Assembly: GCA_001303585.1 (NCBI GenBank)
Contig: LJTT01000007.1
Coordinates: 138,031-202,030, forward strand
Origin: Betaproteobacteria bacterium SG8_41
GTDB taxonomy: Bacteria; Pseudomonadota; Gammaproteobacteria; Burkholderiales; SG8-41
Length of the DNA stretch: 64,000 nucleotides
Direction of reading: 5' to 3'
Shown here one piece after another: positions 7,857 to 63,847 of the stretch. The position numbers and the translations under genes are program-made. Below the pieces are notes generated by a model, which saw only the letters and a program-made list of their open reading frames with translations, made no database searches and was not told where the DNA came from. How positions within the stretch are numbered: the first letter of the stretch is position 1; every line of letters starts with the position of its first letter.

Positions 7857-8876
7857 TCAGGCGTTGACCGGCCGCGGCACGATTGCCACGCGGTCTTCGA
7901 CAATCTGCCGATTGAGCAATGCGGCGCACGCGGCCACCGTCTCCAGCGTGGGCACCGGCGTATTGGTCAGCCGGGCAATGTCGATCACCGCGTTCACGAG
8001 CGCATCGAGCTCGAGCTCGCGCCCGGCCCGCACGTCCTGCAGCGTCGAGGACAGCATGCTGACGCGCTTCTCGCTGTATTCGATCATGCGCTCCGGGGTC
8101 ATCTCCGGCACCACGCCCACCGAGCCGGCGACTGAAAAGACCTCCCTCAGCATGTCAGTCGCGACGCGGCGGGTCTTCGGGTAGCGAACCGCATCCAGGG
8201 CCGTGGACTGAGTAATCGCGCCCAGCGGATTGAACACCGCGTTCGACATTTGCTTGCTCCACTTGAAGCCCCGGATATCGTCGGTTGTGGTCACTGGCCA
8301 GCCCGCCGCCCCGACTACCGACGCGATCGTCTGCAAGCGCGGCGTGAGCCGGTTATCAAGCTCGCCGATGACCAGCCGGTCGGTGGGCTGATCGGCATAG
8401 CGAATATGGCCCGGCTTGACCAGGTCCGCGGGCCGGTACGCAACGCCGCCGACGAGGGAATCGAGCCGGAACGCCTTCGCGAGTTCGCCATCGGGATCCA
8501 GCGACGGAAGCCGCGTGCCACGCAGCGGGGTATCGAGCTTCTCAAAATACCACCAGGGAATCCCGTTCTGCGGCAGGACAATTGTTCCGCTCGAGGAGCA
8601 CAGCCCCGCGATGTGCTTCGCGGTACCGGCGAGGTGGTGCGCCTTCAGCCCGACAAAGACGAGCTCATAGGGTGGCGTCTCGTTGCCTTGCTTGCAAACG
8701 CGAACACGCGTGGATAGGGAGCGCCCGCTCTTGGCGCTCTCCAGCACCAGCTCCCCGCCGGCCAGGGCCTCGTACTGGGCCCCGCGTGCCACCAGCGTAA
8801 CGTCCGCGCCTGCGGCCGTGAGTATCCCGCCGAGATAGCCGCCGATCGCGCCGGCACCAAATACCAGGATCTTCAT
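7857..8876 (-). CDS. Ketopantoate reductase (PanE/ApbA)-family oxidoreductase
   Basis: 339 residues. The N-terminal Rossmann motif is VFGAGAIGGYLGGIL. VGLKAHHL and VLPQNGIPWWY follow the family's NADPH-site and N(A/G) patterns. The C-terminal helical domain contains GFKWSKQMSNAVFNPLGAIT, where the catalytic Lys and Asn of PanE enzymes lie, and ELDALVNAVIDIARLTNTPVPT. Catabolic operons often carry paralogues of PanE with other 2-oxo or 2-hydroxy acid substrates, so true ketopantoate reduction is not certain. A second, diverged paralogue lies at 24313-25347. Confidence 0.82.
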   Translation of the reverse strand: MKILVFGAGAIGGYLGGILTAAGADVTLVARGAQYEALAGGELVLESAKSGRSLSTRVRVCKQGNETPPYELVFVGLKAHHLAGTAKHIAGLCSSSGTIVLPQNGIPWWYFEKLDTPLRGTRLPSLDPDGELAKAFRLDSLVGGVAYRPADLVKPGHIRYADQPTDRLVIGELDNRLTPRLQTIASVVGAAGWPVTTTDDIRGFKWSKQMSNAVFNPLGAITQSTALDAVRYPKTRRVATDMLREVFSVAGSVGVVPEMTPERMIEYSEKRVSMLSSTLQDVRAGRELELDALVNAVIDIARLTNTPVPTLETVAACAALLNRQIVEDRVAIVPRPVNA

Positions 8877-9129: not shown

Positions 9130-10137
9130 ATGCAGAACGACAGGACGACTTTTTCGAGCATCAAGCGCCTGGCCAGGTGCTGCGGACCGGCAGCTTTGAT
9201 CGGGTTTGCGGTTCTTGGCATGACGGGAGCGGCCGCGCAAAACTATCCCGCCCGGCCCGTCCGGGTAATCGTGCCGCAGAGCGCGGGCGGGTCGACGGAT
9301 CTCGTGGCGCGGGCCGTGGGACAACGCATGGCGGATGCGATCGGCCAGCCCATGGTCGTGGACAACCGGCCGGGCGCCGGCAGCATCAACGGCACCGACA
9401 TCGCGGCCAAGGCGTCCCCCGACGGCCATACACTGCTGGTTGTCGCGGCCTCCTTTACCATCACGCCGAATATCAGGAAGAAGGTACCCTACGACGTGCT
9501 CCGCGACTTCACGCCCATCAGCCAGCTCGTGACCCTGCCCCATATCCTCGTCGTGCATCCGTCGCTGCCGGTGAAATCGGTGAAGGAACTCATCGCACTG
9601 GCAAAAGCGAAACCCGGCGTGCTCAACTATGCCTCCAGTGGCATCGGCACCAGCACGCATATGGCAACGGAGCTGTTTCTGCATCTGACGGACACAAAGA
9701 TGGTCAACATTCCCTACAAAGGGGGCTCACCCGGCATGACCGCGTTGCTGGGCGGGCAGGTCCAGCTCTACTTTGCTGCCATCTCTACGGCGATGCCGCA
9801 CGTGAAATCGGGGCGGCTGCGTCCGCTCGCCGTGTCCACCGCGAAGCGCTCGGTTGCCGTGCCCGAGTATCCGACAATTCAAGAAGCCGGCGTGCCCGGA
9901 TACGAGCACGCTTCATGGGTTGGCATGCTGGCTCCTGATGGGACGCCCCGGGCCATTATCACGCAACTCAATAGAGAGGCCGTAAAAGTGCTGCAGATCG
10001 CAGAGGTCAAGAAGCTGCTCCTGCGCAGCGGCGTCGAGGCATTGGGCAGCTCTCCAAAGGAATTTGATGATGTGATCAAGGCCGAGTTCGCCAAATGGGC
10101 GCGCGTCGTGAAGGCAGCCGGAATCGAGCGCCGCTGA
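9130..10137 (+). CDS. Bug-family (TctC) tripartite tricarboxylate transporter receptor
   Basis: 335 residues. A periplasmic solute receptor of the TTT family: signal peptide to about GAAAQ, then QNYPARPVRVIVPQSAGG, which is the classic start of the mature protein, VVDNRPGAGSINGTDIAA, SSGIGTSTHMATEL and VNIPYKGGSPGMTALLGGQVQ. Such receptors bind carboxylates in a Venus-flytrap cleft. There are two ATGs; 9130 is preferred because AAAGGGG then sits six bases upstream, whereas 9124 abuts it. No TctA/TctB gene is adjacent, so this is an orphan receptor, as is common in Burkholderiales. Confidence 0.92.
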   Translation: MQNDRTTFSSIKRLARCCGPAALIGFAVLGMTGAAAQNYPARPVRVIVPQSAGGSTDLVARAVGQRMADAIGQPMVVDNRPGAGSINGTDIAAKASPDGHTLLVVAASFTITPNIRKKVPYDVLRDFTPISQLVTLPHILVVHPSLPVKSVKELIALAKAKPGVLNYASSGIGTSTHMATELFLHLTDTKMVNIPYKGGSPGMTALLGGQVQLYFAAISTAMPHVKSGRLRPLAVSTAKRSVAVPEYPTIQEAGVPGYEHASWVGMLAPDGTPRAIITQLNREAVKVLQIAEVKKLLLRSGVEALGSSPKEFDDVIKAEFAKWARVVKAAGIERR

Positions 10138-10260
10138 ATTTGAACCGCCATCATGCCAAGGCCGCCAGGAACTTTATTACTCTACGAGGCTGCAGTCGAT
10201 TTGCGATTCCCGACTTCCGGTTAATTATTGATAGGCGCTCTTCGGCGGCCGATATCTGCC

Positions 10261-10337
10261 GTTCAAGGTTCAAGGTTTAAGGTTTAAGGTTTAAGGTTTA
10301 AGGCTTAAGGCTTAAGGCTTAAGGCTTAAGGCTTAAG
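10261..10337. repeat. Heptanucleotide tandem array, 11 units
   Basis: Eleven perfect 7-bp units in three homogeneous blocks: GTTCAAG x2, GTTTAAG x4, GCTTAAG x5, followed by GTTTTTT. Block structure of this kind points to recent expansion by slippage. It lies in the gap between the Bug receptor and the sirtuin gene. Confidence 0.97.
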
Positions 10338-10353
10338 GTTTTTTAATAGATCG

Positions 10354-10384
10354 ATCTGTGTTTATCTGCGTGCATCTGCGGTTA
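10354..10384. repeat. Decamer tandem repeat, copy 3
   Basis: TCTGTGTTTA, TCTGCGTGCA, TCTGCGG then TTAA, 17 bp after the heptamer array and about 35 bp before the sirtuin start. Confidence 0.85.
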
Positions 10385-10419
10385 ATAGTGGTTTTATTTT
10401 TTGCGTATCTTCGTGACCG

Positions 10420-57200: not shown

Positions 57201-57285
57201 GTTTCCGCAGCCACTTGGGTATACACAAAAAGACGCTGCATATCGGTATTTGAGAAGCCGCTCGCCCATTAGAGAGGAGCAGACG

Positions 57286-58509
57286 GTGCTAACGCCCAAC
57301 GATTACTTCCCGCCGTTTTCAGAACAGGAATACGCGAACAGGCGCCGGACGATCCGCGCCTCCATGAAGGAGAAAGGGCTCGACTGCCTGGTCATTTATG
57401 GAGCCTACCACTGGGGCGGCACGGATACGGGCCAGGTCAATGCGGTTTATCTGTCCAATTACACGGCTATTCCCCATAGTTATGTGGTGCTTCCGCTGAC
57501 CGAGGACCCGACGCTATTCATCTCTTTTGCCTACCACATCACGAACGCCAGGGACTGCGCGGCAATCGCGGACGTGCGTGTCGGCGGATTCGATCTCATC
57601 ACGGCGGTCGGTGCGCGGCTCAAGGAGCTCGGCCTGGAAAAAGGCAAGATCGGCATCGTCGGGCCGCTCCCCAGCTGGTGGACGATCACTTTGCCCCATG
57701 AGCATCATGTACATCTCACGACGACTTTTCCCAACGCGGCCTTCGAGACGGTCACCGATTGGTACGAGGATTTCCGGCTCATGAAGAGCGACGAGGAAAT
57801 CGCACGCATGGAAAAGGCCGGCGTGTTGTGTGATGTCGCGCATGAGGAAGTCGTCCTCGCGAGCAAACCAGGGGTGCGCCACTCGGACCTGCGCGGGATC
57901 ATGGACGGGGTGGCGAACCGATTCGGGGGCCGCTACCCTTTCTCTCACATTGGCTCGACGTCAATGGCAAATCCGGATCGCTTCTATCCCGATTTCTTTC
58001 CCACTCATCAAACACTCGAAGCCGGACACGTCGTCATGACCGAGGTTGCGCTCGGCTATGGACTGTATTTTGGAAAAATCTGGGGCACCTATTTCATCGG
58101 CGAGCCGACGAGCGAATACCGGAAGCTGTTCGAGGCCGCAGTCGCCGTTCACGACAAGGCGATCGCTGAAATCAAACCCGGCATGACGGGCCGGGACATA
58201 AACCGGTGGGTCGAGCCATTCAGGTCAGCCGGATATATCACCGGCCTGCCGTTGCTGAGCGGCTGGAGCACTTACAACCATCGTCCCCACGCCGGAGTGG
58301 TCGAGGACGGCAAGACGCCGAGCCGTCTCAGTCCGCGCGACCTGGACTGGGTGTACAAGCCCGGTCAGTGCGTGACCATCGTGGCGTTTCCGATCATCCC
58401 CGGGACGAACAAGGGCCTGTGGGTGGGTACGACTTGTGTTTTCACGAAGGACGGCCTCAAGAAACTGCATGCGTATCCGGTGACCAGATTAAGGGTAGTT
58501 CCCGTATAG
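57286..58509 (+). CDS. M24-fold (Xaa-Pro peptidase / creatinase-like) protein
   Basis: 407 residues from GTG 57286, chosen because AGAGGAG is six bases upstream; the frame opens 12 codons earlier at ATG 57250. The N-terminal creatinase domain (to about 150) leads to the pita-bread fold starting MEKAGVLCDVAHEEVVL. The usual metal-ligand region reads EAGHVVMTEVALGYGLYFGKIWGTYFIGEP, where the expected Asp ligands are not seen, while TGLPLLSGWSTYNHRPHAG and VAFPIIPGTNKGLWVG replace the His and Glu segments. It may be a metal-independent hydrolase like creatinase rather than a peptidase. Substrate unknown. Confidence 0.78.
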   Translation: MLTPNDYFPPFSEQEYANRRRTIRASMKEKGLDCLVIYGAYHWGGTDTGQVNAVYLSNYTAIPHSYVVLPLTEDPTLFISFAYHITNARDCAAIADVRVGGFDLITAVGARLKELGLEKGKIGIVGPLPSWWTITLPHEHHVHLTTTFPNAAFETVTDWYEDFRLMKSDEEIARMEKAGVLCDVAHEEVVLASKPGVRHSDLRGIMDGVANRFGGRYPFSHIGSTSMANPDRFYPDFFPTHQTLEAGHVVMTEVALGYGLYFGKIWGTYFIGEPTSEYRKLFEAAVAVHDKAIAEIKPGMTGRDINRWVEPFRSAGYITGLPLLSGWSTYNHRPHAGVVEDGKTPSRLSPRDLDWVYKPGQCVTIVAFPIIPGTNKGLWVGTTCVFTKDGLKKLHAYPVTRLRVVPV

Positions 58510-58627
58510 GCAAGCGATCGTTTTCGAATTCGAGACTTCGGGCCGCCGAGTAAGGAATTCCATTTGCGCATCGGCACTTTTAAAGGGCAAAACAACGGCT
58601 GAGTTCAAATTTTGCTCGGTTCGCAGC

Positions 58628-58665
58628 AAGATAAAAGGCCTGCGTCTCAGCAGGCCTTTTATCTT
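58628..58665. terminator. Perfect 16-bp hairpin, element A of the tRNA ladder
   Basis: Left arm 58628-58643 and right arm 58650-58665 are exact inverted copies (AAGATAAAAGGCCTGC), loop GTCTCA. With T-rich sequence on both strands it can act as a bidirectional terminator for the M24 and aminotransferase genes. It lies immediately beside tRNA fragment A. Confidence 0.85.
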
Positions 58666-58670
58666 GGATC

Positions 58671-58715
58671 TGGCGTACCCGGCGCGATTCCAACCCCCGA
58701 CCCCCTGATGCGCAG
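58671..58715 (-). repeat. tRNA-Arg(ACG) 3' fragment A (decayed, 45 nt)
   Basis: The minus strand begins CTGCGCATCAGGGGGTC and ends GCGCCGGGTACGCCA, aligning over the full 45 nt with the 3' part (positions 32-76) of a tRNA-Arg(ACG), with about eight substitutions including damage to the T-loop. No matching 5' half is present. Confidence 0.7.
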
Positions 58716-58780
58716 GAGATGCGAGTTACTCCACGAACAGGAACTTTCCGCCGCAGCAGTGACGCGGGACCGTCAGCCGC

Positions 58781-59995
58781 TCACGCAACCCGGCGCGTGT
58801 TCTTCTTGATGAATTCGACCATGCGCGCCACCCCCTGCTCGATCGCCTGTTTGGAGGCCGCGTAGGAAAAGCGCACGTGCTGCCCTTCTCCCGGCACGCG
58901 CGATCCGAAATGGATGTCGGCCAGAATCGCCACGCCCGCCTCGTTCAGCAGGCGCTTCCTGAACTCCTCCGAGTCGGTGACGCCGATCATCTTGCAGGCT
59001 TCGGTGACGTTGGGCCAGACATAGAATGCTCCGCCCGGGTTGCGGCAGGTCACGCCCGGCACCTTGTTAAGCAGGCCGACGATGAGGTCGCGCCGCTCGA
59101 GGAAGCTCGCGCGCATCTTCGCCGCCGCGTCCTGCGGGCCGGTGACTGCTTCCAGCGCCGCCCACTGCGAGATCTGCGAGGCGCAGGAGTCGGTGTTGGT
59201 AATCCAGCGCGTGAATACCGGCGCGAGCGCCGGGTTGGCGGTGAAGCCGATGCGCCAGCCGGTCATCGCCCAGGTCTTGGAGGCGCCGTCGGAAATGATG
59301 GTGCGCTGGTACATCCCCGGCAGTTGCGCGATGGAAAAGAATTCGCCCGCATAGCAAAGCCGCGAATAGATCTCGTCCGCGTAGATCCACACCTGCGGGT
59401 GCTTGCGCAGGATCGCTGCGATCGCTTCCAGGTCCTGGCGCGAGAGCAGCCCCCCGGTGGGATTTTGCGGGTAATTCAGAATGAGGAGCCGGGTTTTCGG
59501 CGTGATCAGCCGCTCGAGCTCCGCCGGGTCGAAGGCGAAGTCGCGCGCCTCGTGCAGGTGGATCGGCACGGGCTTGGCGCCGTTGGCAAGGATCTGCGAC
59601 TCGTAGATCGGAAAACCCGGGTTGGGGTAGATCACTTCGTGGCCCGCGCCGTAGTCAGTGGTGGACAGGATCGCGTAGGCGATGAAGGGCTTTGCCCCTG
59701 CGCCCACCACCACGTCCTCGGGCCGGATCGGTAAGCCGCCGCGCATGCCCGCCATGTACGTTGCGGCGGCCGCGCGCAGCTCGTCGATGCCGGCCGACGG
59801 CGTATAGCCGTGCTTGCCGCTCTGGATGGCCTTGATTGCCGCGGCCTGCACGTTATCCGGCGCCGGAAAATCGGGCTGCCCGATGCAAAAACTGATGATG
59901 TCCTTGCCCTGGCGCGCAAGCGCGTTGACCTCGGCGAGGACGACAAAGGCGTTTTCAGTGCCCAGGTCGCGGGCACGCTGGCTGATATCGGGCAT
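58781..59995 (-). CDS. Pyridoxal-phosphate aminotransferase, class I/II
   Basis: 404 residues. Fold type I aminotransferase: KDIISFCIGQPDFPAPDNVQ, GYTPSAGIDELRAAAATYMAG, YPNPGFPIYESQI, LILNYPQNPTGG, WIYADEIYSRLCY, and SDGASKTWAMTGWRIGF with the PLP Lys, then the substrate Arg near HVRFSYAAS. AGGAGGAACAG precedes ATG 59995. It could use aspartate, alanine, aromatic or branched-chain amino acids. It is the only gene between tRNA fragments A and B. Confidence 0.92.
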   Translation of the reverse strand: MPDISQRARDLGTENAFVVLAEVNALARQGKDIISFCIGQPDFPAPDNVQAAAIKAIQSGKHGYTPSAGIDELRAAAATYMAGMRGGLPIRPEDVVVGAGAKPFIAYAILSTTDYGAGHEVIYPNPGFPIYESQILANGAKPVPIHLHEARDFAFDPAELERLITPKTRLLILNYPQNPTGGLLSRQDLEAIAAILRKHPQVWIYADEIYSRLCYAGEFFSIAQLPGMYQRTIISDGASKTWAMTGWRIGFTANPALAPVFTRWITNTDSCASQISQWAALEAVTGPQDAAAKMRASFLERRDLIVGLLNKVPGVTCRNPGGAFYVWPNVTEACKMIGVTDSEEFRKRLLNEAGVAILADIHFGSRVPGEGQHVRFSYAASKQAIEQGVARMVEFIKKNTRRVA

Positions 59996-60051
59996 CTGTT
60001 CCTCCTGAAAGAATAATGGGGTCAGCCATACCTTTTTGTCTAGGTCACCCC

Positions 60052-60072
60052 TGGTCCCTCATCCCTCATCCC
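60052..60072. repeat. Heptanucleotide repeat beside tRNA fragment B
   Basis: TGGTCCC, TCATCCC, TCATCCC. The same TCATCCC unit stands at 61195-61208 and 62326-62339, always on the hairpin side of a tRNA fragment, so it belongs to the duplicated unit. Confidence 0.8.
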
Positions 60073-60083
60073 TGACGCAGAAA

Positions 60084-60110
60084 GGCCTGCAGCAATGCAG
60101 GCCTCTTTTT
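60084..60110. terminator. Hairpin of element B
   Basis: GGCCTGCA (60084-60091), GCAA tetraloop, TGCAGGCC (60096-60103), then TCTTTTT. It is nearly identical to the hairpin of element D. Confidence 0.85.
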
Positions 60111-60119
60111 GCGTGAAGC

Positions 60120-60164
60120 TGGCGCGCCCGGCAGGTTTGGGAGCCACGACCCCCTGGTGCGGAG
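60120..60164 (-). repeat. tRNA-Arg(ACG) 3' fragment B (45 nt)
   Basis: On the minus strand it runs from CTCCGCACCAGGGGGTC to CTGCCGGGCGCGCCA, positions 32-76 of tRNA-Arg with a damaged T-loop. The 30-base stretch 60106-60135, from the T-run through the acceptor end, is identical to 62388-62417 in element D. Confidence 0.78.
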
Positions 60165-60178
60165 CCCGCCCCAGATAC

Positions 60179-61003
60179 TCACGCAGAGTCCCAGGCCGGA
60201 CTGTGCGGCGGATTGACAATACGTGTTCCGCGGGCCAACGCCGAGATAGCGGCCATCTCTTCATTCGTGAGCGTGACGTCGAGGACCTTCAGGTTTTCGC
60301 GCAACTGTTCGACATTCTGGACGCCGGGTATGGCGACGACCCGTTCCTGCTGTACGAGCCACCGTAGCGCGACTTGAGCGACGCTCAGCTGCCGCCGCTT
60401 GGCGATCTCCTGCAGCACCGGATCGTTCAAGACCGCCCCGCGGGCGAGCGGGGAATGGGCGACCAGCACGAGCCCTTGCTCGCGCATCAGGTCCAGGAGC
60501 GGGCGCTGGTTCAGGTAAGGGTGGTACTCGACCTGGTTGGCCGCCAGGTCGCTGACGATCTCTAGGGCCTGTCGCACCAGGGCCGTCGGGAAGTTGGACA
60601 AGCCGATCGATCGCGCCTTGCCCTGTTCGCGCAGCGCTGCAAACTCACGGAGGGCCCACTCCAACGACACTACCGGGTTGGGCCAGTGGATGAGGAGAAG
60701 ATCGACATAGTCCGTTTGCAGCAAGCGCAGGCTCTTGTCCAGCTCGAACGCGAGGTCCGGCTGCGGCGGCGTCTTGGGGTGCAGCAGCTTCGTTGTCACC
60801 CAGATGTCACCGCGCGGGACCGACGAACGCGCCAATGCTTTCCCGACCGCTTCTTCGTTGCCGTAGTACCGGGATGTGTCTATGTAGCGATAGCCCTCGG
60901 CGAGCGCCGCTTCGACGAGCGCGCAGCCGGCGTCGCCGACGCTGCCTAGCGTCCCGAAGCCGATACCGGGCATCGTGTACTTCCCTACGAGTTCCTTTTC
61001 CAT
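60179..61003 (-). CDS. Aldo/keto reductase (2,5-diketo-gluconate reductase type)
   Basis: 274 residues, the usual AKR length. MPGIGFGTLGSVGDAG, YIDTSRYYGNEEAVGKAL (catalytic Asp and Tyr), WVTTKLLHPK (Lys), VDLLLIHWPNP (His) and VAIPGVQNVEQLRENLKVLDVTL (cofactor tail). Cytosolic NADPH-dependent carbonyl reductase; substrate unknown. ATG 61003 has only a weak ribosome site. It is the only gene between tRNA fragments B and C, and its stop lies 15 bp from fragment B. Confidence 0.92.
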   Translation of the reverse strand: MEKELVGKYTMPGIGFGTLGSVGDAGCALVEAALAEGYRYIDTSRYYGNEEAVGKALARSSVPRGDIWVTTKLLHPKTPPQPDLAFELDKSLRLLQTDYVDLLLIHWPNPVVSLEWALREFAALREQGKARSIGLSNFPTALVRQALEIVSDLAANQVEYHPYLNQRPLLDLMREQGLVLVAHSPLARGAVLNDPVLQEIAKRRQLSVAQVALRWLVQQERVVAIPGVQNVEQLRENLKVLDVTLTNEEMAAISALARGTRIVNPPHSPAWDSA

Positions 61004-61599
61004 GCGAGATTATGAATATCGGGTTTTCAAACAATGCATTTTTCGAGAACCCGCAATCTATGCCGCGACGGGCGAATCGTCAATCGCGTAAATTTTCACT
61101 CCGCTCCGTTGATTGAAATGCAGTCAGGTCCACCTTTCTGGAGCTGACGCAAAGAACAGGACCTCACCTCTTTCTTTGGACACACGCATCCCGGTCATCC
61201 CTCATCCCTCAGACTTCACCCCTGGAGCAAAAGGGCCGGCATCGATGTAGGCCTTTCTGCGTGGCACTCGCGCGCCCGCCAAGTCATCGGATGGGCAAGT
61301 CATGATCCGTGAATCGTGGATTGACCACAGCCGGCCGGGCAAGGCACGCATCGCCGCAGATATGAACCTGACCCAATTTTGCCGGCCCTATTTCTCCGCG
61401 CGTACGGCCCGGGGATACACCAAGCCCCCCTGCTCTATTCCATGGTTTCCGAACTTCCTTGATCCCGCCCGCAAAGAAAAATCTTCCGCGCCCGGCCCAG
61501 TGTGGAATACCACTTGCGAAGCGCCGGCACTTCGAATAGATTTCCCGCCTGCCTGCCGAAAATTGTCCCAAAACACGTATCACCCGAAAGGAGTTTCCG
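61004..61599. other. Intergenic stretch containing decayed ladder element C
   Basis: No convincing gene in 596 bp. It contains heptamers TCATCCC x2 (61195-61208), hairpin C (61234-61253), a tRNA remnant (61268-61283) and, at 61309-61322, a GTGAATC-type heptamer pair. The ribosome site AAGGAG of the lipoprotein gene lies at the right end. Confidence 0.55.
61195..61285 (-). repeat. Ladder element C: heptamers, hairpin and eroded tRNA-Arg end
   Basis: The order is the same as in B and D: TCATCCC x2, a hairpin with GGCC ends around CATCGATG (61234-61253), CTTTCTGCGTGGC, then CGCGCGCCCGCCAAG, which matches the acceptor end of the tRNA fragments only in part. It is the most decayed copy. Confidence 0.5.
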
Positions 61600-62295
61600 A
61601 TGTGCACCATGATTCGATGGACGTTATTGCTTGCAGCCGGCTCGTTGACCTTGATCGGTTGCGCAACCGACTACTCGCGGAGCGGAAGCGGCGACAACAG
61701 CATGTCATTCTTCATCACCAGCGTTAACCCCGGAAAGGGCGGCGATTTCGGAGGGCTTGCGGGAGCAGATCAGCATTGCCAGAAACTGGCTGCCGCTGCG
61801 GGCGCCGGAAACCGCACCTGGCGCGCCTACCTGAGCGGCCAGGGCCACAAGCTGAACGAACCCAATGTCGTGCACGCGCGTGACCGCATTGGCAAAGGCC
61901 CGTGGTACAACGCCAAGGGCGTGCTGATCGCGAACAATGTCGACGACCTGCATTCGGCAAACAACAACATCAACAAGCAGACGGCACTCGACGAGCGGGG
62001 CCAGATGGTCAACGGCCGCACCGAGAAGCCCAACCAGCACGATATTCTGACCGGATCGCGTCCCGACGGGACCGCCTTTGCGGGGACCCAGCGGTTTCCG
62101 GACATGACCTGCGGCAACTGGACGAAAAACACCGCAGAAGGGTCCGCGATGACTGGCCACCACGACCGCGCGGGGCCGACCAAAGATCCGTGGGGTGTGT
62201 CATGGAACTCCGCGCATCCGACGATCGGTTGCACCCAGGCGCTGATCGCCAAGACCGGGGGAGACGCCCGAATCTACTGCTTTGCCGCGAAATAG
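61600..62295 (+). CDS. Lipoprotein with DUF1554-like (lectin-fold) domain
   Basis: 231 residues. LTLIGCATD is a lipobox (lipidated Cys about residue 21). The rest begins MSFFITSVNPGKGGDFGGLAGADQHCQKLAAAAGAG, continues RTWRAYLS and ends IGCTQALIAKTGGDARIYCFAAK. This resembles the C-type-lectin-like DUF1554 family of surface proteins. AAGGAG lies six bases before ATG 61600. Probably surface-exposed or periplasmic; ligand unknown. It is the only gene between tRNA fragments C and D. Confidence 0.8.
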   Translation: MCTMIRWTLLLAAGSLTLIGCATDYSRSGSGDNSMSFFITSVNPGKGGDFGGLAGADQHCQKLAAAAGAGNRTWRAYLSGQGHKLNEPNVVHARDRIGKGPWYNAKGVLIANNVDDLHSANNNINKQTALDERGQMVNGRTEKPNQHDILTGSRPDGTAFAGTQRFPDMTCGNWTKNTAEGSAMTGHHDRAGPTKDPWGVSWNSAHPTIGCTQALIAKTGGDARIYCFAAK

Positions 62296-62360
62296 CTTCG
62301 CCGAAAAGCAAACGGGGGCGGTGTCTCATCCCTCATTCCACTGCCCTCATCATCCCTGAA

Positions 62361-62394
62361 GCAAAAAGGCCTGCAGCAATGCAGGCCTTTTTGC
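62361..62394. terminator. Perfect 15-bp hairpin of element D
   Basis: GCAAAAAGGCCTGCA (62361-62375), GCAA tetraloop, TGCAGGCCTTTTTGC (62380-62394). T-runs on both strands allow termination both of the lipoprotein gene and of a tRNA read from the right. Confidence 0.9.
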
Positions 62395-62401
62395 GTGAAG
62401 C

Positions 62402-62446
62402 TGGCGCGCCCGGCAGGAATTGAACCCACGACCCGCTGGTTCGTAG
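62402..62446 (-). repeat. tRNA-Arg(ACG) 3' fragment D (best preserved, 45 nt)
   Basis: The minus strand runs from CTACGAACCAGCGGGTC to CTGCCGGGCGCGCCA: anticodon loop from position 32 (anticodon ACG), 3' anticodon stem, variable loop, an intact T-arm (GTGGG TTCAATT CCTGC), acceptor strand and encoded CCA. The tRNA homology stops abruptly at position 32, and the bases beyond do not form a 5' half. A break at the anticodon loop is the classic crossover site of tRNA-targeting integrases, so this is probably an attachment site. Confidence 0.85.
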
Positions 62447-62847: not shown

Positions 62848-63075
62848 ATGGCAACGCGCGATACGATGATGCACCAAGAACTGATTGACCTGCCGGCAAA
62901 TCGAGGCGGCCCAATTGTGGACCCGCCACCATTTAACGGAAATTGGGATTGCCCGTGGGTAAACGTCGGGAATCACCCTATTGCCCCGCTGGCGCCAGAG
63001 TCATACATTGGAGGTTCATACGATGTGACCAATCGAGGAAAGGAGGGACACCATGATCGAAATCCCGAGTTTTAG
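62848..63075 (+). CDS. Small hypothetical protein upstream of the nuclease
   Basis: 75 residues, hydrophilic, with Pro- and Gly-rich segments (LPANRGGPIVDPPPFNGNWD). It overlaps the nuclease start by 23 bp. No ribosome site is visible before ATG 62848 and no family is recognised. It may be a real accessory protein or a chance frame. Confidence 0.35.
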   Translation: MATRDTMMHQELIDLPANRGGPIVDPPPFNGNWDCPWVNVGNHPIAPLAPESYIGGSYDVTNRGKEGHHDRNPEF

Positions 63076-63847
63076 ACCCGAGACGCGATATGGAATCCCG
63101 ACGGCGGACCTCTACCTCATGAACCGCCAATATATTGTCGGATACTCCTTTCTCTTCCGGCAGCCACGATGGGCTCTGGAGCTCATCGACGAAGATAACA
63201 TTGCGATCAAGGAGAATCTCTTTCGATTGGACAACTTCCGCATTGATCTGCGGATTCCGGAAAAGTTTCGATCGACACTCAAGGATTACAGCGCCGAGAA
63301 GCACCCCGTAGACAAGAAATCTCTGTGGGATCGGGGCCACCTCGTCTCCAGCGCGGATCGGCGGTCGAAATTCGTTCTGAACAGCGAGACGTTTCTCCTC
63401 AGCAACATGAGCCCGCAGGCTCGCGGCTTCAATCGCGGAATTTGGAAGGACCTCGAAGAAGCAGTGAGGCATCTGGCGAGGCAAACCGACCAGTACGTCG
63501 AGGTCTATGCGGTTTGTGGTCCGTTGTTCGATGTCGACGACGATATCCACGTGATCGGCACGAGCAGAGTGGTCGTCCCGCACGGCTACTTCAAATCGGT
63601 ACTCGCAGAACGGAAGACCGGCCGCTTCGACATGTGGTCGTTCATGATCCCCAACGAGGAACAGAGTAAACCGCTGTCGAGCTTCCAATGCACAACAGAT
63701 GAAGTCGAACGACGCGCAGGACTGTCGCTCTGGGATCGGCTCCGTGGGGAAGATGGTGACGAATTGAGACGAGTGAAGAAAAAAATGTGGTCGCTTGCCG
63801 GCAGCACGAAGAAGGCGGCCAGGAAGAAAAAGACAACAAAAACTTGA
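63053..63847 (+). CDS. DNA/RNA non-specific endonuclease (NUC1 / beta-beta-alpha metal type)
   Basis: 264 residues. SLWDRGHLVSSADRRSK is the DRGH catalytic signature, and FLLSNMSPQARGFNRGIWKDLE contains the Asn metal ligand; VYAVCGPLFD and VPHGYFKSVLAE complete the fold. The AAAGGAGGGACACC ribosome site is strong. There is no signal peptide, unlike secreted relatives, and the C-terminus is Lys/Arg-rich (KKAARKKKTTKT). It could be a toxin-like, defence or housekeeping nuclease. Codon use looks less GC-biased than in the core genes, and it lies beyond tRNA fragment D, both consistent with acquisition. Confidence 0.88.
   Translation: MIEIPSFRPETRYGIPTADLYLMNRQYIVGYSFLFRQPRWALELIDEDNIAIKENLFRLDNFRIDLRIPEKFRSTLKDYSAEKHPVDKKSLWDRGHLVSSADRRSKFVLNSETFLLSNMSPQARGFNRGIWKDLEEAVRHLARQTDQYVEVYAVCGPLFDVDDDIHVIGTSRVVVPHGYFKSVLAERKTGRFDMWSFMIPNEEQSKPLSSFQCTTDEVERRAGLSLWDRLRGEDGDELRRVKKKMWSLAGSTKKAARKKKTTKT

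Follow-up and report, generated by a model that had tools for sequence, protein, structure and literature searches.

How does a bacterial chromosome come to carry a row of tRNA 3' ends that are parted from one another by single genes? The question is raised by a stretch of 64,000 nucleotides from Betaproteobacteria bacterium SG8_41 (GenBank assembly GCA_001303585.1, contig LJTT01000007.1, positions 138,031 to 202,030 of the forward strand), which we call the window and number from its first base. The source genome, cited below as G000, is a 3.75-Mb assembly of 147 contigs that is 92% complete, and the window corresponds to G000:C69:138031-202030. On the minus strand of its 58.6-62.45 kb region lie four units, F1 to F4, each consisting of a tRNA-Arg 3' part and a hairpin terminator; we refer to the series as the ladder and to the genes between its units as cargo. 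The ladder is probably a stack to which single genes were added one by one, each time at the 3' half of tRNA-Arg(ACG). This reading draws on the repeated borders, the single intact gene in each segment, two cargo genes that were not found in nine congeners at strict thresholds, a junction between an aldo/keto reductase (AKR) gene and a tRNA half, and the recurrence of the arrangement in three relatives (G004, G007, and G026).

Four tRNA-Arg 3' ends with terminators

Three of the units, F1, F2, and F4, run from tRNA position 32 to the CCA and then into a hairpin with a T-run. F4 (62326..62446, minus strand) has tRNA-Arg(ACG) positions 32-76 at 62402-62446, followed by a spacer, a GGCCTGC hairpin with a T-run, and a GATGA-type tail at 62326-62339 with one mismatch. 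F2 (60056..60164, minus strand) has its tRNA 3' half at 60120-60164, a terminator hairpin, and a GGGATGAGGGATGA tail, while F1 (58626..58715, minus strand) has its tRNA 3' half at 58671-58715 and a different terminator, of the GATCCAA type. F3 (61195..61312, minus strand) is made of an eroded tRNA 3' end, an imperfect hairpin, and the GGGATGAGGGATGA tail. A sequence-only reading of the window had described three minus-strand pieces of 45 nt from position 32 to the CCA, and all three are present. The eroded fourth piece that it placed near 61268 is real as well, because a profile trained without F3 recovers it at 61227-61283 (E 8e-5); a covariance model, of whose alignment F3 is a part, places it at 61223-61312 (E 1.4e-8). 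The best non-unit match in the window had an E value of 0.017 in the profile search and covered the hairpin part of the model only.

The identity of these pieces as tRNA-Arg(ACG) 3' ends is upheld by the match to the consensus 3' half (positions 32-76), with which F1, F2, and F4 agree at 36/45, 39/45, and 42/45 positions, but the ACG anticodon itself is kept by F4 alone; by eye, the loop reads GCG in F1 and CCG in F2. The repeat exceeds 45 nt, since it includes the spacer, hairpin, and T-run and, in F2 to F4, also the tail. Spacers and hairpins are alike in F2, F3, and F4. A GGCCTGC/GCAGGCC hairpin had been attributed to every piece, and every unit does have a hairpin terminator broadly of the GGCCTGC type, imperfect in F3 and of the different, GATCCAA kind in F1. 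At no more than one mismatch, GGGATGAGGGATGA has three sites in the window against 0.01 expected, and all of them fall within units (exact in F2 and F3, one mismatch in F4). By eye, the F1 terminator resembles the one 3' of the intact tRNA-Arg gene in G004, and the F2-F4 type resembles a terminator in G002. When 84,980 named species genomes, possibly not including the source genome, were scanned for the F2-F4-type pattern, one record was returned, the metagenome-assembled genome Betaproteobacteria bacterium RIFCSPLOWO2_02_FULL_67_26.

With the start of F3 set at 61290, the units begin 1156, 1126, and 1449 bp apart, which confirms the arrangement of one gene per segment of 1.1-1.4 kb, the measured range being about 1.13-1.45 kb. 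An Rfam scan of the region gave sub-threshold matches only, mostly hairpins taken as Thr_leader. In a promoter and terminator scan, where terminators were no commoner than in shuffled sequences, one of the four unit hairpins was reported, that of F2 on the plus strand; pairing of the T-runs into the stem probably accounts for this. ARAGORN found no intact tRNA in the window. On another contig of the same genome there is a fifth, lone tRNA-Arg 3' fragment, which also starts at position 32 and has no matching terminator (G000:C26:16737; L014 238-282).

A gene joined to a tRNA half

The most informative border is that between F2 and the AKR gene (274 aa; 60179..61003, minus strand). The DNA of this segment is homologous to chromosomal AKR genes of four relatives (G015, G019, G011, and G044) at 84-88%, from 60171-60178 to 61074-61108. 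Within these limits (60171-61108) the homology comprises the gene, about 100 bp upstream, and at most 8 nt beyond the stop codon; the matches in G041 and G023 are shorter (78-79%), save for a separate 39-nt piece in G023. At the 3' end the match to G015 extends through TGA-GTATCTGG, and tRNA position 32 starts six bases on. The junction (60165..60178, minus strand) is accordingly composed of 8 nt of AKR 3' flank (GTATCTGG) and 6 nt, after which the tRNA begins, and the AKR stop lies 14 nt from F2. As judged from these alignments, the upstream flank of F2 is the native 3' flank of the AKR gene, and the F2 border is a direct gene-to-tRNA junction.

This junction bears on the alternative of a tandem array of tRNA-Arg genes, which the sequence-only reading had itself raised; the copies would have decayed after genes had been inserted between them. 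True tandem tRNA-Arg(ACG) arrays occur in the order (four copies in G128), and the sequence upstream of F4 has a weak likeness to a tRNA 5' half, with p 0.004-0.006 in one test and 0.02-0.04 in another. A shorter query and window gave p 0.02-0.04 for F1, 0.006-0.012 for F2, and 0.0007-0.002 for F4, whereas against the whole 5' half F1 to F3 were not significant (p 0.07-0.46). At F2, where a full 5' half had looked plausible in the short-window test, the apparent GAGTATCTGG proved to be the AKR 3' flank, which excludes a decayed tRNA 5' half at this border and refutes a tandem-array origin of F2. Since similarity also breaks at the same position, 32, in F1, F2, and F4, we regard an array as a very improbable source of the ladder.

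The flanks of the three well-preserved units contain 11-mers similar to tRNA positions 21-31, with 8/11 identities in F1, 9/11 in F2 (in the AKR flank), and 8/11 in F4. The sum of these identities was reached by 0 of 200,000 resampled triples, in a post hoc test made after the motif had been seen. With a shorter query (tRNA 14-31), the flanks of 4 of 16 other fragments (L046, L062, the first copy in L066, and L072) score at least as high as F2, and the other 12 score lower. We treat this likeness, read from the flanking bases, as a lead. A motif common to all three flanks was rejected, as 27 of 300 random triples equal it, and no shared element-end motif is claimed.

Cargo genes and their distribution

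Besides the AKR gene, the ladder carries a gene for a pyridoxal phosphate (PLP)-dependent class I/II aminotransferase of 404 aa (58781..59995, minus strand) and one for a lipoprotein-like protein of 231 aa (61600..62295, plus strand), which has by eye a lipobox-like N terminus and matches Pfam Endostatin/NC10 at E 4e-5, below the cut-off. The three genes were searched for in 74 other genomes, comprising 9 congeners (72-98% complete), 35 other members of the family, and 30 other members of the order. The aminotransferase (E <= 1e-120) was found in none of the congeners, in none of the other family genomes, and in 6 of the 30 other order genomes; the AKR (E <= 1e-70) was found in 6 of the 35 other family genomes and in none of the congeners or other order genomes. 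The lipoprotein belongs to a wider family, present at E <= 1e-20 in 30 of the 74 genomes and with a second copy in G000. The GC contents of the cargo genes are 65.3, 64.1, and 62.1%, compared with 62.3% for the window. When ten proteins were submitted to PADLOC, none of the three from the window matched.

There is little room for an integrase within the ladder: the longest leftover outside genes and units is about 290 bp (61313-61599), ahead of the lipoprotein gene. None of the genes in the three segments encodes an integrase, and the window's contig gave no match to Phage_integrase. The loci where homologues of the cargo reside were also inspected. ARAGORN detected no intact tRNA in the 33 loci L084-L116, nor in the six AKR loci among them (L094-L099), which extend about 1.35-1.5 kb on each side of the match. 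In a sequence search of the same 33 loci, unit copies were found in the window's own loci (L086, L093, L100, and L112), weak partial matches in loci of four relatives (L090, L095, L097, and L111), and none in the remainder.

A gene for an M24 peptidase (57250-58509) lies next to F1, outside the ladder. It is present in 4 of the 74 genomes at E <= 1e-120, none of them a congener; it is 90-91% identical in G011 and G039, and the DNA homology does not extend beyond the gene. This gene may have been added singly at an earlier time, its border having eroded since. A short sequence of the GGGGTCAG type lies close to cargo genes in two species, at 59996-60040 in the window and at about 4900-5000 in L067, where by eye it is palindromic.

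The same tRNA gene in relatives

A match to the unit was obtained in 124 of 149 genomes, G000 included. Among 29 new loci (L035-L063), ARAGORN found an intact tRNA-Arg(ACG) in 20 and the remaining 9 had fragments only. Sixteen loci of the family combine an intact tRNA-Arg(ACG) with at least 5 kb downstream (G002, G004, G005, G007, G008, G009, G010, G015, G016, G017, G020, G021, G026, G036, G043, and G044); they were picked by unit similarity and so are not a random sample.

In three of them, G004, G007, and G026, a copied 3' end with terminator lies no more than 5 kb from the tRNA, with one non-integrase gene between. The order is tRNA, beta-propeller gene, copied end, and UbiD in G004; tRNA, subtilase, copied end (98% over 52 nt), glyoxalase, a weak copied end (E 0.03), and UbiD in G007; and tRNA, PAP2 phosphatase, and copied end in G026. 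Because the same UbiD gene follows the stack in G004 and G007, different single genes appear to have been added at one site, the gene content before UbiD being a beta-propeller gene in one relative and a subtilase and a glyoxalase gene in the other. A comparison with relatives, proposed earlier as a check on the ladder, recovers one-gene segments at the same tRNA in these three genomes. As to the other loci, all that is seen in G015 is a weak fragment (E 0.005) some 80 nt beyond the tRNA, the copies in G016 and G044 lie 9.5 and 11.5 kb from theirs, and in the other ten the retrieved sequence contains no copied end at E < 0.05.

The longer spacings introduce a second alternative, in which each segment would be the remnant of an ordinary tRNA-Arg island that lost its integrase and most of its cargo. 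Islands of 8-10 kb with an integrase occupy the same tRNA in G111 (of the order) and G016 (of the family, within the segment mentioned above). The integrase in G111 has 492 aa and adjoins the tRNA fragment there. Longer spacings are also seen in G044, where two open reading frames (ORFs) tested are not integrases, and in G040, where the spacing is 4.1 kb, the one ORF tested is not an integrase, and no tRNA lies in the stretch fetched; the units of the ladder also look aged, with 36-42 of 45 positions matching. Against decay stands the uniformity of the outcome, as all three ladder segments and those of G004, G007, and G026 hold one gene each, with no integrase found. In addition, the AKR border shows a native flank within 6 nt of position 32, where the end of an island should be an evolved attP arm, and such a flank is hard to square with a phage-type attachment arm. 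We consider decayed islands a possible but doubtful explanation.

The borders themselves differ among relatives. Clear identity of the copied ends starts not at position 32 but at about 57 in G004, 65 in G007 (by BLAST), and 53 in G026 (by eye), so that a start in the anticodon loop may not be general; profile alignments, which are looser, extend these ends to about 34, 48, and 44, respectively. Such variable borders are what could be expected if DNA bearing a tRNA end and terminator had been inserted through RecA or microhomology, without a site-specific recombinase. A repeat of about 100 bp could permit homologous exchange, and the 8-9/11 identity of the junction flanks to tRNA 21-31 is also consistent with this; but position 32 was used three times in the ladder, and the same edge is found at the integrase islands. 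Insertion of this kind is therefore unlikely to account for the ladder.

Further tRNA 3' ends were noticed at three other loci. In L066 (G060:C224), two tRNA-Arg 3' ends with similar terminators, at 1877 and 4452, are 2.6 kb apart; a gene for an AbiEii-type toxin (phage defence) precedes the first, and the ORFs tested between the ends have no Pfam or PADLOC match. L078 (G018:C98) has a solitary tRNA 3' end with terminator at 8770-8830, by eye at the 3' end of a cytochrome-like gene, and no tRNA in its 19-kb stretch. In L157 (G024:C88), a pair of tRNA-Arg 3' ends at 10131-10397, by a contig end, is separated by less than 200 nt, and their terminators differ.

The right end of the ladder and the search for a recombinase

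The sequence-only reading had looked to the right of the window for an intact tRNA-Arg(ACG) and an integrase, and neither was encountered: the contig ends 245 nt beyond the window, inside a transposase-like fragment (sub-threshold rve and HTH_38 matches), and for this reason an intact tRNA next to the ladder cannot be seen. In G004, G007, and G026 the intact tRNA heads the stack, and the G000 contig stops before one could be seen. A tRNA-Arg(ACG) gene is not among the 37 tRNA genes that ARAGORN reports in the 92%-complete assembly, nor was it found by a DNA search. Given the likeness of its flank to a 5' half, F4 may be either an end that was displaced or the tRNA itself in a decayed state. 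Upstream of F4 is a gene for a DNA/RNA non-specific endonuclease (63053..63847, plus strand) with a GC content of 54.1%, compared with 62.3% for the window, and this gene may belong to the segment that was added next.

A Phage_integrase search of G000 returned only XerC and an N-truncated integron integrase, and G007 has a single match (E <= 1e-5). With no integrase in the segments and only these two in the assembly, a recombinase would have to act in trans, to have been lost, or to sit in the unassembled part. The integron integrase (G000:C1, L085 1375-2178; TIGR02249, E 1.6e-115) lacks the first 59 or so model positions and is, by eye, beside a DnaE-like gene. Several congeners have integrase matches of similar span, a hint of integrons in the genus.

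Gene cassettes of integrons consist of one gene per unit together with a repeated element. The ladder resembles them in its single gene per unit and in the repetition of a hairpin element, and the same genome has a gene for an integron integrase. The cassettes nevertheless differ from the ladder in what is repeated: the RYYYAAC/GTTRRRY pair of attC boxes is present in none of the four units, and the repeat is a tRNA end with a terminator. That the ladder is an integron array is thus scarcely credible.

Comparison with known systems

As far as the available portions of the cited papers describe them, the closest relatives of the ladder are additive flexible genomic islands (fGIs) at tRNA genes, reported as fGI-2 of Methylophilaceae (PMC10872708) and from Ca. 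Actinomarinales (PMC7771536) and Alteromonas (PMC4119200). There, too, additions at one tRNA are flagged by direct repeats of its 3' part, the cargo is variable, and units can be small; those of fGI-2 range from 330 bp to 42 kb with 1-63 coding sequences (PMC10872708). The ladder shows the repeated partial copies of a tRNA 3' end in one locus (F1 to F4) that are expected of such islands, the genes at the site vary between relatives (G004 and G007), and by its main features it would be placed with them. Units down to one gene are therefore already in print. What appears new, in that those portions do not describe it, is the format of three successive one-gene units, a repeat that also includes a terminator and tail and travels with the unit, and a junction with native flank mapped to within 6 nt.

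Other systems share fewer traits. The ssrA islands of Dehalococcoides are tandem segments parted by copies of the 3' end of the target gene, and 15 of them have no integration module, but in the part of the paper available their target is a tmRNA gene and their enzyme a serine recombinase (PMC3146451). Islands and integrative and conjugative elements (ICEs) at tRNA genes have the whole tRNA on one side and a 3' fragment on the other, 44 bp in one example, and measure about 9-121 kb in the excerpt consulted (PMC9897764). The ladder agrees with them in its displaced 3' fragments from the anticodon loop (position 32 in F1, F2, and F4), whereas its segments are of 1.1-1.45 kb and hold no integrase. 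Tycheposons also have a tRNA border and cargo but, according to the portion seen, are of 4-200 kb and include a tyrosine recombinase gene (PMC10872708), which the ladder segments do not. Membership in integrons, tycheposons, or tandem tRNA arrays was examined and rejected. A literature search, which covered few subscription papers and many sources only in part, found no description of a ladder with one gene per tRNA end at tRNA-Arg(ACG).

A model of serial addition

If the ladder grew by serial addition, each added unit would consist, in the direction of the tRNA, of tRNA positions 32-76, a terminator, and a short tail, followed by one gene. Every addition would re-form the tRNA with the 3' half and terminator of the newcomer and push the old 3' half and terminator downstream, and the ends pushed out in this way would make up the ladder. 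By position, the oldest terminator would be expected in F1, with F2 to F4 representing a second terminator type. The units may enter as small circles, with a tyrosine recombinase acting in trans to recombine them at the anticodon loop; such an enzyme is the natural candidate given the integrase islands at this tRNA in G111 and G016. The other half-site may be a gene end that adjoins a tRNA-like sequence (GAGTA-CTGG).

Of the two possibilities raised by the sequence-only reading, repeated integration at one tRNA-Arg gene or a cassette system bordered by tRNA ends, the elements of true borders and repeated additions hold, through the AKR flank at F2 and the three other genomes, but neither an integrase nor an intact tRNA accompanies the ladder. 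Several further observations weigh against serial addition. No circular form has been seen. Base composition does not mark the cargo genes as foreign, as their GC content is like that of the window, and members of the lipoprotein family are frequent among relatives. Comparison with relatives did not yield the limits of the aminotransferase and lipoprotein segments, the roughly 87 bp that separate the F3 tail from the AKR homology are unaccounted for, and in G019 a homologue of the window's ChaC gene lies about 6 kb from the AKR gene on the same contig, in a different relative orientation, which is unexplained. Erosion does not go strictly with position in the stack, F3 being more eroded than F1 and F2; the 5'-half likeness of F4 also fits a decayed tRNA; and, with four of the 16 other fragments matching as well, the flank motif is not special to the ladder. 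Among relatives, a clear short segment is present in only 3 of the 16 similarity-picked loci; the same UbiD gene lies 5.5 kb from the tRNA in G008, where other ORFs intervene and no copied end was detected; and the T arm or its vicinity seems to be where the copied ends of G004, G007, and G026 begin, which may be more than a single recombinase can explain.

More tentatively, the tRNA-Arg 3' half and its terminator might make up a portable module at which single-gene cassettes that lack an integrase could dock. A recombinase acting in trans would join position 32 to a half-site of tRNA-like sequence next to almost any gene, form a small circle, and reload it at the tRNA. If this were so, it would amount to an integron-like capture of genes that is built from a tRNA and needs no attC sites. 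By moving along with its unit, a terminator could also shield the added gene from adjacent ones. It has long been asked how bacterial chromosomes acquire single foreign genes when no mobile element is in sight, and the ladder offers one capture junction mapped to within 6 nt, between the own flank of a chromosomal gene and a tRNA half, together with a testable mechanism, that of recombination at the anticodon loop of a tRNA with pseudo-sites next to genes.

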